Assembly (NCBI GenBank): GCA_029978335.1
Contig: JAPOJQ010000002.1
Location: 62,001-126,000 of the forward strand
Length of the DNA stretch: 64,000 bases
Source of the DNA: Actinomycetota bacterium
GTDB taxonomy: Bacteria; Actinomycetota; Acidimicrobiia; Acidimicrobiales; Ilumatobacteraceae
Reading direction: 5' to 3'
Shown piece after piece: positions 2,839 to 19,429 of the stretch. The position numbers were made by a program, and so were the translations under genes. Position 1 is the stretch's first letter; every line of letters begins with the position of its first letter. Under the pieces are notes generated by a model. That model had not been told where the DNA came from. It searched no databases and saw only the letters and a program-made list of their open reading frames with translations.

Positions 2839-3791
2839 TGACCACGACCGCTGCTGCACCCGACATGACCCTCACAACTCGCATGGCGTGGGGAGCGGGA
2901 TGGACCACCATCGACGCCGATGGGGTCGTGCTCGACGCCTGGTTCCCGTGGCTCGGCTGGGGTGAAGGTGGCGACGATGGCCTTGCCGGTGAACGCCCAC
3001 GGCGCGACGAGGTTCGTCATGTCACCGTTGAACCGATTCGCTTGACCATTGACGTCGATCAACCTGCGGCATCAGTTGCCGATGCATATTTGCGACTGCA
3101 TCTGCTCTCCCATCGTCTCGCCGCACCGAGAACGCTCAACCTCGATGGACTCTTTGGCACACTGACGAACGTCGCATGGACGAGCCTCGGCCCCGTGGCG
3201 ATCGCCGAACTCGACGCCACGCGGCTGCGTGCACGCGCCACCGGACAGCACGTGACGGTGAACGGCGTCGACAAGTTCCCACGGATGACCGACTATGTGG
3301 TGCCGTCAGGGGTGCGCATCGCCGATGCATCTCGAGTCCGACTCGGCGCTCACCTCGCCGAGGGAACCACCGTGATGCACGAGGGTTTCTGCAACTTCAA
3401 CGCCGGCACACTTGGCGCCTCGATGGTCGAAGGCCGCATCTCTGCTGGCGTCATCGTTGGCGACGGTTCCGACGTCGGTGGTGGCGCGTCGATTATGGGC
3501 ACCTTGTCGGGCGGTGGCACCGCGCAGATCACCGTCGGCCAGCGATGCCTACTTGGAGCGAACTCAGGTATCGGCATCAGCTTGGGTGATGACTGCGTGG
3601 TGGAAGCCGGGTTGTACGTCACCGCCAGCACACCCGTGCTGACCCCCGACGGCGAGGTCGTCAAGGCCGCAGCGCTCTCGGGCCGTTCGGGTCTGATGTT
3701 CTTGCGCGATGGCCGGACGGGTCAGGTCATCTGCCGTCAACGCACTGGCGCTTGGGGTGCCCTCAACGAGACACTGCACGCCAACGACTGA
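2838..3791 (+). CDS. dapD: 2,3,4,5-tetrahydropyridine-2,6-dicarboxylate N-succinyltransferase
   Basis: Left-handed beta-helix hexapeptide region ([61 protein letters not shown]); actinobacterial DapD style; start overlaps lysS stop (ATGTGATG). Confidence 0.92.
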
Positions 3792-3801
3792 ACCGGTATC
3801 C

Positions 3802-4701
3802 ATGACCCATCTGACCCCAGATCCGATCGGCAAGCGACGGGTGGGGTGGGCCTTGGCAGCCGGCGGCATGTTGCTCGTCTCGACGGACTCGTACTTCGTC
3901 CGACTCGGTCAGGCGCCCGGTGCGACGATGGCATTCTTGATGGCAGTCGGGTCAACGTTGACGCTCGGTATCGCTGCTGTGATCTCCGCCCGAAGCGGCG
4001 CCGAGTTACGCCAACGGATCCTGCTGCATCCAACGGCGCTCATCGTGGTGGCGCTGTTGAGCGCCGCAACCCAACTTGCGTTCATCGTCGCCGTGACTCG
4101 CTCGAGCGTGTCAAATGTTGTCGTCATCGTTGCCGGCGCGCCGCTCATGGCAGCGATCGCTGGAGCGCTGGTGCTGAACGAACGGCCGAGGAAGCCGGTG
4201 CAATTTGCCGTTGCCCTCACGACCATCGGTATCGCAGCGGTGATGTCGGGTTCGCTCGGCACGCCGCGACTCGATGGTGACCTCCTCGCTGTCGGTGCGA
4301 TCGTCTGCTTCGCCTTGTCGATCATCGGTTGGCGTCGTTATCCCACTCTTGATCGTCCGATCACGCTCGCTGCCGGCTCCATGGTGATGGCCATCGGCAC
4401 CGCTCCCCTCGTCGACTGGTCGGCGCTCGATGCTCGGGCGATCATCGCCGGCGGCATCATGGGGCTCGTTGCCAATCCGGCTGGCCGCATGCTCTACTCG
4501 TCGGCGCCGAGGTATGCCCCCGCCGCTGAAGTGGCCGTGTTCGCTCCCGTAGAGACGGTCGCAGCAACCGTCTGGGCATGGATGGCGTTTGCCGAAGTTC
4601 CAACCGGACGAACCATCGTCGGTGGCCTCATCGTCATCGCCTCGGTCGTCATTGCGACCCGGGGCGCGCCGACACTCAGTCGTTCGGCATCTCGCGGGTA
4701 A
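3802..4701 (+). CDS. EamA/DMT family transporter
   Basis: About 10 hydrophobic helices with EamA-type repeat; C-terminal VAVFAPVETVAATVWAWMAFAEVPTGRTIVGGLIV. Confidence 0.8.
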   Translation: MTHLTPDPIGKRRVGWALAAGGMLLVSTDSYFVRLGQAPGATMAFLMAVGSTLTLGIAAVISARSGAELRQRILLHPTALIVVALLSAATQLAFIVAVTRSSVSNVVVIVAGAPLMAAIAGALVLNERPRKPVQFAVALTTIGIAAVMSGSLGTPRLDGDLLAVGAIVCFALSIIGWRRYPTLDRPITLAAGSMVMAIGTAPLVDWSALDARAIIAGGIMGLVANPAGRMLYSSAPRYAPAAEVAVFAPVETVAATVWAWMAFAEVPTGRTIVGGLIVIASVVIATRGAPTLSRSASRG

Positions 4702-14948: not shown

Positions 14949-16109
14949 TTGACCAGCGACGAGCACATGTCACCCACTGGTCGTCTCATCTGCCACGATG
15001 ACACCGTGCTGTTCGACACCTCCACCATTGACCTCGATGCTTTCGCAGCGGCGACCGGCTGGGAGATCAAACCAGAAGGTGCCTGCAAAGGTGATGTGTG
15101 CGTGCCACTCGGCTCCAATCGGGACGCACTGGCGATCGCCGAACGACTAGGTATGGCAGTCGTCACCGATCAGGCCACAGGCCAAGTGGCCATCGGCCCG
15201 GCCTCACTCAGCGGACATGCACTCGACTCGGCCGACGCGCCTGACGTTGTGCTCCACGACCTCGACGGCAACGAAGTTGCGCTCTCGCAGTTCCGTGGCG
15301 AGAAGGTCGTGATCGTCAGCTGGGCCCCCTATTGAGGCTGCCGCTATGACCTGCCAGGTTGGCAGGCGCTGAACACCGAGCTTCGAGATGCCGGCACACC
15401 GGTGACGATCATCACCGTTGCCATCGAGACCGACGGCGCCGACGCCGTGCGCGAGTACATCGATGCAGCTGAACCTGAACATCCATCGTTGATCGATACC
15501 GAACATGTCCTCGAGCGAGCATTCGGTGTGGTCAACATCCCGAATGTGGTCTGGATCGACGAAGCGGGCGTGATCGTGCGGCCGGCCGAACCCGGCTGGG
15601 CTGGGCCAGCCGAATATCCGGACTGGCTGGCGAACCTCATGGCCGAGCGAGAGAGAAGGGCCGCCGAGCAAGGAGCAGAGGCGCTGGCCGCTCTCCGTGC
15701 GGGCCAGGACCGAACCTCGTACGCCGATGCCATTCGCGATTGGGCTGTCAACGGCTCGGCATCACGGTTTGCTCTGGCTCCCGACGAGGTCGTTGCCGCA
15801 TCACGCCCGCGCGATATCTCCAGGTCCGAAGCCGCAGCCCGGTTTGAACTAGGAGTTGACGCGTGGCGTCGAGGTGACCGTAAATCGGCATTTTCACACT
15901 GGCGTGACACCCATCGCCTCGACCCCGACAACTGGACCTACAAACGTCAAGCCTGGTCGCTGGTGGGGAACGAAGCCGCAGGAGGTGGGGAGCTTGGCCG
16001 CCTGATGCAATTCGGCGTCGATGATTCGTGGCCCTTCGACGGGGACTTCAACCGTGACACCGCCGCAACACCACCTGGCACCTACTACCCGAAGACCATC
16101 GACGTCTAG
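14949..16109 (+). CDS. Thioredoxin/TlpA-like redox protein, candidate selenoprotein (in-frame TGA at 15333-15335)
   Basis: Two track ORFs (14949-15335, 15402-16109) are in the same frame with only one TGA between them; joined protein reads ...LSQFRGEKVVIVSWAPY-U-GCRYDLPGWQALNTELRDAGTPVTIITVAIETDG...FGVVNIPNVVWIDEAGVIV... Confidence 0.75.
15350..15366 (+). promoter_or_regulatory. Candidate bacterial SECIS apical stem-loop
   Basis: CCTGCC-AGGTT-GGCAGG, 6-bp perfect stem, loop at nt 21-25 after the TGA. Confidence 0.55.
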
Positions 16110-16338: not shown

Positions 16339-17556
16339 TCACCCTCGGCGACGTCGCCATGCAGAAAAGCTGCCAATGGGCCCGTCCGACGGTGCGACCA
16401 ACCACGGGTACGGATGGATGACAACAGGTGCAACCCGACGGGCGATCCGATGGAAGCCGGGCACCGGGGCGAACGTGACTGCAACCGACCGGCCCGCAAG
16501 TACCTCGTGGGGATTGCCGCGGTATACCTCGAGCGCTCGCCGGGTCGCCAGATCAGCGAGAGACTCAACAAGGAACACGAGCCGCTTCGACGACAACTGA
16601 AGGCTGGCAAGCAACGGTTCGTCGAAGACGAACACCGCCGGGAGTTCAGAGTGAGCAGACAGCGCTGGATCGGCGTCACCGAGTGACTCAGCGGTCAGCC
16701 ACACCGCCGCGGGTTCGACCCCCGTCGACCTCATCGAGGACAACGCACCGGGATCAGCCACCAACCGGTGGCTACCTGATAGCTCAACTGGCATCCAGTC
16801 CGGCTCGTCAGGCCAGTCGGCAATCGGACAGGACGACCGATGCACGCATCCTCGACACAACTCCGGCGCCCGACGCTCAACTTGCGATTTGCTGAAGCCG
16901 TAGTGCTTCGACGAGCCAGTCCCCACGGTCCACTGCCAGCCCATGCGATTCGCCGCGCGAGTTCCATCGAGGAGGTGACGGAAAAAGTGCTCCTCCCCCA
17001 CCTGCCACGCGCCGCCACGCCGCACCGACCACTCGCTCGCCAGCCACATCCGGGTCTGGTTTACGAGCCAACCATCCCGCTCCAGTTCAGCGAGCGTGAT
17101 GTCGACACACGCCATCGAGCGGTCCCACGACACATCAGGGTCGACATGGGACTGCTCACGTCGCACTCCCCGAGCGCTCGCCGCGCCGTGATGCAGGTAC
17201 CAGTGGCGGGCGTACTCCTGCCACATCAACTCGTCGCGAAACTTGGCGACGTCCTTGCTCGGCCCACCAGCGACCTGGTTCCACACCTGTCTCAGCGTCA
17301 GCAGTCCGTGTCGGATGTAGGGCGACAGCCCTGAGGCGCCTCGGTCGGACTCGGGCAGCACCTGGTTACGGCGAGACGCATAGCCAGACACATCGAAGTC
17401 GGCGAGCGCCGCATCGGCTGCCGTCTGGCCACCGCGGAACCGTTCCGACCCGACGATGCTGTCTGCATCGCAGACCAGATGACCCAAGTGATCAGTCACG
17501 AATCGCTCGGCAGCCAAACGACCTCGATCAGGTGTTGGCAGCAGTTGTCCAGCCAT
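16339..17556 (-). CDS. Photolyase/cryptochrome-like protein with apparently permuted domain order (FAD domain N-terminal, alpha/beta domain C-terminal)
   Basis: N-half: GGQTAADAAL..YASRRNQVLPE..SGLSPYIRHGLLTLRQVW...FRDELMWQEYARHWY...NRMGWQWTVGTG; C-half: AAVWLTAESLGDADPALSAHSELPAVFVFDEPLLASLQLSSKRLVFLVESLADL...GNPHEVL...GSFSAWRRR. Confidence 0.82.
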   Translation of the reverse strand: MAGQLLPTPDRGRLAAERFVTDHLGHLVCDADSIVGSERFRGGQTAADAALADFDVSGYASRRNQVLPESDRGASGLSPYIRHGLLTLRQVWNQVAGGPSKDVAKFRDELMWQEYARHWYLHHGAASARGVRREQSHVDPDVSWDRSMACVDITLAELERDGWLVNQTRMWLASEWSVRRGGAWQVGEEHFFRHLLDGTRAANRMGWQWTVGTGSSKHYGFSKSQVERRAPELCRGCVHRSSCPIADWPDEPDWMPVELSGSHRLVADPGALSSMRSTGVEPAAVWLTAESLGDADPALSAHSELPAVFVFDEPLLASLQLSSKRLVFLVESLADLATRRALEVYRGNPHEVLAGRSVAVTFAPVPGFHRIARRVAPVVIHPYPWLVAPSDGPIGSFSAWRRRRG

Positions 17557-17635
17557 GGCCAGAGCGTCTCACCCTCTTGTCAGCGACGCCGCACGCTGCT
17601 CGTGCCCACACCGCATGCGCCCGATCGCGCGTGGC

Positions 17636-19429
17636 TCAGTCGGCTCGAATATATGGATTGCAATGCATCTGGGCACACGCGCGAATCACGAGTTCATCAA
17701 GCGTCGCTGACACCACCACGGGCAGGCCATTCGCCGTCAACACCAGCGATGGGTCGAGCCCAGCGTGGACTGAACCGTCGACGATCTGAGCGATGATCCG
17801 ATCGGAACAGTCGGAATTGGTGCAACGTGCGACGTTCAGCATCGAGTTGGGGAAAGTTCCGCTGGTGTTTTCGCCGCGGTAGGCAACGAGGAGATCCCCG
17901 TCCACAGTGACGATCGCATCAGCGGTGAAGGCAATCGCCGTGTCCCACCTCGCCTCATCTTGGTTCCCCAACGAGCATGACAAGTCGCCACACGTCAAGA
18001 CAACGGTCTGCCGCGAACTGTTGTCGGCGAGTCCAAACACGACCCTCGGTTTGCCGTCAGGTCCAACGATGATCGTTGGATCCGACATCGTCGCTGACGT
18101 CAGGGTGGCGTCGCTCCACTCAGTGCTGAACGTCACCCCCGAGCACGAGACCACGGAGCAACGGCCAATCGCGAGCGAGGCCGTCGTCCCACCAGAGTTG
18201 ACCGACGAGACAGCGATCACGGGCAGCCCATCCGATCCGATCACGATGTCGACACCCGATACGTCGTACCCCAGCCAGGCGTAACTTGCGGCTCCGACAT
18301 CAAGGCACGGCCCGATCACCCGCGCACACGCTCCGACGTACACGGTTGATCCGCTGTGGAACACCGCCACGACCCCACCGTCGGAGAGGCTGCTGACGAC
18401 TGCCGGCCCACCGGTGACTCCTGTTGTCGAGAATCCCTGCGACTGTTGCACCGAGTTGCACGAGGGATGGCCGCAGTACACCAGCTTGGCCTTTGAGACC
18501 CCTCCGGTCACGTCTCGATAGGCCACGACCGGATTTCCCGCATCGGTGATTGCGATCCTGGGATGACTCACCTGGTCCGCTGTGTCAACGAGCGTCGTCG
18601 ACTCGAACGTAGCGCAACGAATGTCGCCGCAGGTAGCCAACATCAGATTGTTCGCGGCACCATCGACGTACGCAATCACGGGGTTCCCATCAGCGCCGAT
18701 GACAACATCTGGCTCGTCAGCCCCCGGAATCGACTGCGTCAGATCATCATCGAGGAGCACGACGCCATCGGCTCCATCAGCACCCGCTGAGCCAACCGCA
18801 CCATCAGCACCAGCCGGACCCGCCGGACCGACCGCACCATCAGCACCAGCCGGACCCGCCGGACCGACCGCACCATCAGCACCCGCCGGGCCTGCGGGGC
18901 CCTGAGCACCAGAGTTCGTCGCGGTCGTGTCGTAGTAGCCGGAGATGTCCACCAGCAGGTCTGCCAACCCGTAGACATACAAACACACCGAACCATCAGC
19001 CGACAGCGGCGCAACGACGGAGTTCGGCACCGTCTGCCCCGACACAAAGTTGAGATTCGACACATCCGGACGTGGCCCACAGGGATAGACCGTCACGAAG
19101 CCACCGAAGTCGTTCGTTCGGCCATCGACCACGGTGATGTTGAGCGCCGCCGCTGTCGCCGATGACGGGATCACCCCGCCCGTCACCTGCAACTCGTACG
19201 GCTCACCGCCTCCGCCCAGGTCGGTGGCACCGATTGGATCGGCTGATCGGGTGTCGAGGATTCGATCCGGGGAGATCGCCACGAATGATGCGGCCCCGGA
19301 CTCAGCCGACACCGAGAGGAGTCCGCCTGCGCCGAGCGTCACGGCGACTGCCGCACCGATCGCCGCCCAACGCGACCGCCAGACCCGACGCGTTGCTGGA
19401 CAAGGACTATTCACCGAACAATGTCGCAT
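17636..19429 (-). CDS. Secreted protein with collagen-like Gly-X-Y segment
   Basis: N-terminal signal-like TM; RILDTR...NITVVDGRTNDFGGFVTVYPCGPRPDVSNLNFVSGQTVPNSVVAPLSADGSVCLYVYGLADLLVDISGYYD module; GAQGPAGPAGADGAVGPAGPAGADGAVGPAGPAGADGAVGSAGADGADG. Confidence 0.85.
   Translation of the reverse strand: MRHCSVNSPCPATRRVWRSRWAAIGAAVAVTLGAGGLLSVSAESGAASFVAISPDRILDTRSADPIGATDLGGGGEPYELQVTGGVIPSSATAAALNITVVDGRTNDFGGFVTVYPCGPRPDVSNLNFVSGQTVPNSVVAPLSADGSVCLYVYGLADLLVDISGYYDTTATNSGAQGPAGPAGADGAVGPAGPAGADGAVGPAGPAGADGAVGSAGADGADGVVLLDDDLTQSIPGADEPDVVIGADGNPVIAYVDGAANNLMLATCGDIRCATFESTTLVDTADQVSHPRIAITDAGNPVVAYRDVTGGVSKAKLVYCGHPSCNSVQQSQGFSTTGVTGGPAVVSSLSDGGVVAVFHSGSTVYVGACARVIGPCLDVGAASYAWLGYDVSGVDIVIGSDGLPVIAVSSVNSGGTTASLAIGRCSVVSCSGVTFSTEWSDATLTSATMSDPTIIVGPDGKPRVVFGLADNSSRQTVVLTCGDLSCSLGNQDEARWDTAIAFTADAIVTVDGDLLVAYRGENTSGTFPNSMLNVARCTNSDCSDRIIAQIVDGSVHAGLDPSLVLTANGLPVVVSATLDELVIRACAQMHCNPYIRAD
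18795..18903. repeat. 36-bp tandem repeat (about 3 copies) encoding collagen-like (GPAGPAGADGAV)n
   Basis: accgcaccatcagcaccagccggacccgccggaccg at 18795 and 18831 exact, degenerate third copy at 18867. Confidence 0.9.

Follow-up and report, generated by a model that had tools for sequence, protein, structure and literature searches.

Does the open reading frame (ORF) at 16339-17556 encode a photolyase whose two domains stand in reverse order? The gene lies on the minus strand of a 64,000-nucleotide stretch of an Ilumatobacteraceae genome (contig JAPOJQ010000002.1, positions 62,001 to 126,000), referred to here in its entirety as the window, and a first-pass annotation had proposed that its product is a domain-permuted photolyase/cryptochrome-like protein. 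That proposal held: the order was reversed and both domains were homologous to photolyase. Judged from its sequence, the protein is very likely a photolyase of the reverse-order class, the type represented by the short photolyase-like proteins (SPLs), NewPHL and Phr6, with a probable iron-sulfur (Fe-S) cluster and a light-driven repair activity directed most likely at cyclobutane pyrimidine dimers (CPDs). Several observations stand behind this assignment: the domains come in reverse order, each is homologous to its photolyase counterpart, active-site residues and four cysteines are invariant, the two-domain structure is modelled with confidence, and the protein groups phylogenetically with others of reverse order.

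The ORF was intact, with an ATG start and 405 codons, and every sequence motif quoted in the first-pass annotation was located in its product.

16339-17556, minus strand: whole coding sequence, permuted photolyase-like protein of 405 amino acids plus stop (ORF and more than 100 homologs)
17569-17571, minus strand: TGA stop in frame with the gene, 4 codons ahead of its ATG (the open frame upstream amounts to 4 amino acids only)

Because of this TGA, no N-terminal domain can be present in frame, and only 79 nt separate the start from the stop of the neighbouring gene (17636-19429); a hidden upstream domain was thus ruled out, in agreement with the earlier claim. An early in-frame stop upstream of the start was also found in many homologs. 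Comparison with the closest homolog (L031) gave a dN/dS of 0.15 across the whole ORF, with values of 0.11 and 0.22 for the two halves, indicating that both are under purifying selection. The permuted ORF is neither a product of chance nor an assembly error.

The protein begins with the photolyase linker/FAD domain, as had been suggested.

16903-17436, minus strand: photolyase linker and FAD-binding domain spanning residues 41-218; E109, W112, N166, W184, D197, N203 and W207 are conserved (Pfam PF03441 and alignment to 1owl)

Pfam FAD_binding_7 matched residues 106-218 (E=1.9e-11), and residues 41-215 aligned to residues ~206-397 of class I photolyase chains, which correspond to the second half of those enzymes. 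The family profile matched class I photolyases more strongly (E=1.4e-24), and the best hits of this half in both sequence and fold were the class I CPD photolyases of A. nidulans and T. thermophilus, whereas the match to the FeS-BCP structure 4dja was weaker (E=7e-4, compared with 1e-24 for class I). The A. nidulans residues E283, W286, N349, W367, D380, N386 and W390, whose roles are established, correspond to the seven conserved positions listed above and were invariant in all 74 aligned homologs; the class I active-site set (E283, W286, N349 and N386) is accordingly present in the window protein. A fold search with the whole model, which also matched PhrB (4dja), aligned only ~230 columns, as expected when a sequential alignment method is confronted with a permuted protein.

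The remainder of the protein consists of a linker followed by the segment that had been likened to the normally N-terminal antenna domain.

16711-16809, minus strand: inter-domain linker, residues 250-282, where model confidence is lowest (pLDDT 68 at residues 261-270)
16345-16710, minus strand: alpha/beta domain of the photolyase antenna type at the C-terminus, residues 283-404 (profile, AlphaFold2 and Foldseek)

AlphaFold2 modelled the whole protein with a pLDDT of 94.5 and a pTM of 0.94, and in this model residues 283-404 follow a b1-a-b2-a-a-b3-a-b4-a-b5 alternation of strands and helices. The last 150 residues folded alone gave a pLDDT of 84.8. When the C-terminal model was searched against the whole PDB with Foldseek, the top five matches were photolyases (E 1.6e-3 to 1.6e-2, probability 0.99-1.00, TM about 0.5), ranking above universal stress proteins and other Rossmann folds. 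This modelling of the C-terminal half had been proposed as a check in the first-pass annotation, and the structural similarity whose absence would have refuted the permutation was found. A profile of the segment from 74 homologs matched a profile of the canonical N-terminal domain from 20 photolyases of related genomes with 93% probability (E=3.5e-7); its score was 48.3, whereas 60 column shuffles reached at most 32.5 and the reversed profile scored 11.5. The resemblance was clearest by way of Deinococcus homologs, whose corresponding domain gave a 99.3% match to that of the window family and, over 107 columns, a 96.8% match to the canonical one (E=2.7e-10). A two-sequence profile of the Persicobacter C-terminal domain did not match the canonical domain (0.4%); it appears photolyase-like by eye and was not counted. 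Both the sequence profile and the modelled fold of the C-terminal segment thus resemble those of the photolyase alpha/beta domain.

Four cysteines, overlooked in the first-pass annotation, were invariant across the family alignment and suggest an Fe-S cluster.

17107-17109, minus strand: C150, the first of the four invariant cysteines, a probable Fe-S ligand (103 of 103 sequences)
16828-16857, minus strand: C234-x2-C237-x5-C243, the remaining three cysteines, likewise invariant and probably Fe-S ligands (103 of 103 sequences; spacing of Phr4 C254/C257/C263)

The spacing in the window family is 84/3/6. In Phr4 of marine Synechococcus, C169, C254, C257 and C263 (spacing 85/3/6) have been assigned to an Fe-S cluster (PMC9426592), and the four cysteines of the window protein probably form such a site.

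A survey of homologs for domain order, likewise proposed at the outset, identified more than 100 that keep the FAD domain first, mainly in Actinomycetota. Within this phylum the reverse-order protein has a wide but patchy distribution, being encoded by 30 of 397 sampled genomes and in 21 of 245 genera. Homologs from two Rhodococcoides species were 54% identical to the window protein, those on Deinococcus plasmids were about 30% identical, and phage homologs matched in the FAD domain only. A maximum-likelihood tree was built from 56 FAD domains, with class II, FeS-BCP and cyanobacterial Phr6 sequences outside the sample; in it, a single branch (support 100/99) parted all 32 reverse-order proteins from the 24 canonical ones. 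The reverse-order side includes proteins from Deinococcus, Persicobacter and Alphaproteobacteria, the last of which we take to be NewPHL. For the sequences sampled, the tree speaks for the cohesion of the reversed proteins as one group and not for a root position.

Some of these relatives differ in their gene arrangement. On a plasmid of Deinococcus sp. QL22 (L161 1396-2687) separate genes encode the FAD and alpha/beta halves, with a 4-nt overlap where the domains meet, an arrangement resembling the published cyanobacterial phr4/phr5 pair. The junction linker is absent relative to one-gene Deinococcus relatives, which makes a sequencing slip less likely, and the two-gene form suggests that the domains may assemble as separate chains. 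On Persicobacter plasmids (Bacteroidota; L172 1357-2571 and L173 1234-2577) FAD-first proteins lacking the Fe-S cysteines are encoded, and in each case the very next gene is also of photolyase type, with the canonical order. Conserved neighbours are few: of 81 loci, 8 have a DUF2256/DUF3253 gene upstream (in L034 this gene, at 3479-3905, directly precedes the permuted photolyase gene, and the other 7 have a related ORF), and 5 have a NAD/FAD-dependent oxidoreductase gene. Oxidoreductase genes of this kind lie near reverse-order photolyases in Asticcacaulis and some actinobacteria (L164 498-1442, L171 549-1493 and L041 3065-4055); the product may serve to reduce the flavin or act as a partner in repair. 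Neither neighbour was found beside the window gene.

We infer from the sequence the binding of FAD and a cluster, the repair of dimers and, for the C-terminal domain, its role and chromophore. The N-terminal domain would bind FAD, form the lesion pocket and house the cluster, which would be accessory. Reduced FAD, excited by light, would donate an electron to the dimer, which would then be split. The C-terminal alpha/beta domain would pack on the FAD domain and, as elsewhere in the class, close off the site of the cofactor; it perhaps carries an antenna dye.

Several results weigh against this model. The same genome encodes a second, ordinary photolyase of canonical order (G000:C95), so the window protein could have shifted to a sensory role; moreover, in the window family A. 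nidulans D382 is replaced by Ser/Thr and T240 by Ala, and the distal tryptophan W314 maps to a deletion, so that photoreduction must differ. All of this would suit a permuted cryptochrome-like light sensor that kept FAD and abandoned DNA repair to the genome's ordinary enzyme. We nevertheless judge such a sensor improbable, since E283, W286, N349 and N386 all have invariant counterparts and the reverse-order class has been described as one of CPD repair enzymes. The homology of the C-terminal half also meets resistance: on the segment alone PF00875 remained sub-threshold (E=0.016). Single Deinococcus proteins came closer to PF00875 (E=2e-4 to 1e-3), though still short of the cut-off. An hmmsearch of the C-terminal profile against PDB sequences was uninformative, returning nothing under E=0.18, with photolyases at E=0.27 alongside antibody chains.

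Since the fold is a common one, the segment could be an unrelated Rossmann-like domain, in which case the protein would be a fusion without any permutation. This is very unlikely given that photolyases head the Foldseek ranking, that the profile score exceeds every shuffle and the reversed profile, and that the Deinococcus domain, so close to that of the window family, aligns to the canonical one. The genome is of metagenome type and fragmented into 107 contigs, which could point to an artefact of assembly, frameshift or truncation; such an artefact is refuted, and we assign it next to no probability, as the same architecture occurs in isolate genomes of Pseudonocardia, Rhodococcus, Rhodococcoides, Nocardioides, Microlunatus, Cryobacterium and Actinomycetospora and the dN/dS of the whole ORF is low. 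A reverse-order photolyase thus remains the preferred reading.

Two genes near the photolyase gene were also noted. The gene at 17636-19429 (minus strand) encodes a collagen-like triple-helix repeat protein with GPAGPAGADGAV repeats that is probably secreted. A redoxin-like ORF at 14949-16109 (plus strand) contains an in-frame TGA at 15333-15335, at the position of the expected active-site cysteine (SWAPY-U-GCRYDLPGWQ), and is likely a selenoprotein. This TGA was kept in 14 of the 20 loci compared, the window included, with a single TGA per homolog, and genes for SelB (279 bits) and tRNA-Sec (62.8 bits), both over cut-off, adjoin on contig C68 of the same genome. A hairpin (CCTGCCA-GGT-TGGCAGG, 15350-15366) lies 14 nt past the TGA and is for the most part preserved among homologs; the overall folding energy of the segment was no better than that of shuffles (z -0.08).

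The domain order also bears on the history of the family. SPL proteins have been placed at the root of the photolyase/cryptochrome family, as an antenna-less ancestor. The Fe-S members filed as 'short', however, have their alpha/beta domain at the other end; if it is indeed present there in Actinomycetota and Deinococcus, simplicity ceases to be an argument for ancestral status. This weakens the case for primitive SPLs and may interest specialists. Tentatively, and at somewhat less than an even chance, we suggest a single origin of the reverse order at the base of the class, with all 'short' photolyases, NewPHL included, descending from a two-domain reversed ancestor, the alpha/beta domain having decayed or split off in some lines. 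If so, the class would represent a derived rearrangement, in contrast to the proposal that it is the antenna-less form from which every photolyase and cryptochrome descends. The reversed order also shows that there is more than one way to link the two photolyase domains. What is added to the known class is modest, namely one reversed group (100/99, with limited sampling) and an alpha/beta domain at the other end.

Compared with known systems, the window protein differs from the class I CPD photolyases (A. nidulans, T. thermophilus), in which an N-terminal alpha/beta domain precedes the FAD domain, the opposite order to that seen here; those enzymes have a full Trp triad and no Fe-S cysteines. 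The FeS-BCP (6-4) photolyases PhrB and CryB have a four-cysteine cluster and are defined by it together with the canonical order, which is reversed in the window protein. SPLs share with it a FAD domain without an N-terminal alpha/beta domain, the four cysteines in part of their class, and CPD repair, which is predicted for the window protein as well. They have been described as CPD repair enzymes lacking an alpha/beta domain, whereas the window family has one at its C-terminus. An SPL-class member from Rhodococcus fascians, now named Rhodococcoides fascians, was reportedly found by Xu et al. 2021 to contain FAD and an Fe-S cluster and to repair CPDs.

NewPHL is said to have been described as a reverse-order photolyase by Emmerich 2020. 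NewPHL and Phr7 resemble the window protein in their inverted topology and N-terminal FAD domain, and presumed NewPHL homologs fall in the same tree group. They are distinguished by the lack of Fe-S cysteines and by a divergent C-terminal Z-domain, in Phr7 also C-terminal (PMC9426592), whereas the window protein has the cysteines and a recognisable alpha/beta domain. The NewPHL Z-domain matched the Deinococcus form with a profile probability of 66.5% or 45.2% depending on the direction of the query, a weak link; its profile did not match the actinobacterial alpha/beta form, and against the canonical domain it reached 4.7%, barely over shuffles, so that no link to the canonical domain is claimed.

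Reverse-order photolyases have therefore already been published, a trait of this bacterial class that the first-pass annotation did not mention, and the window protein is an actinobacterial member. Its published counterparts include Phr6 (one ORF) and Phr4+Phr5 (two ORFs) of marine Synechococcus/Cyanobium, in which a FAD domain is followed by a DNA photolyase domain and Fe-S cysteines are present (PMC9426592). These cyanobacterial systems mostly comprise two ORFs, unlike the single ORF of the window, and share with it the FAD-first order and a near-identical spacing of the four cysteines. With an N-terminal FAD domain, a C-x2-C-x5-C motif at the end of that domain, a C-terminal alpha/beta domain and its place in the tree, the window protein has the features of the Phr6 type.
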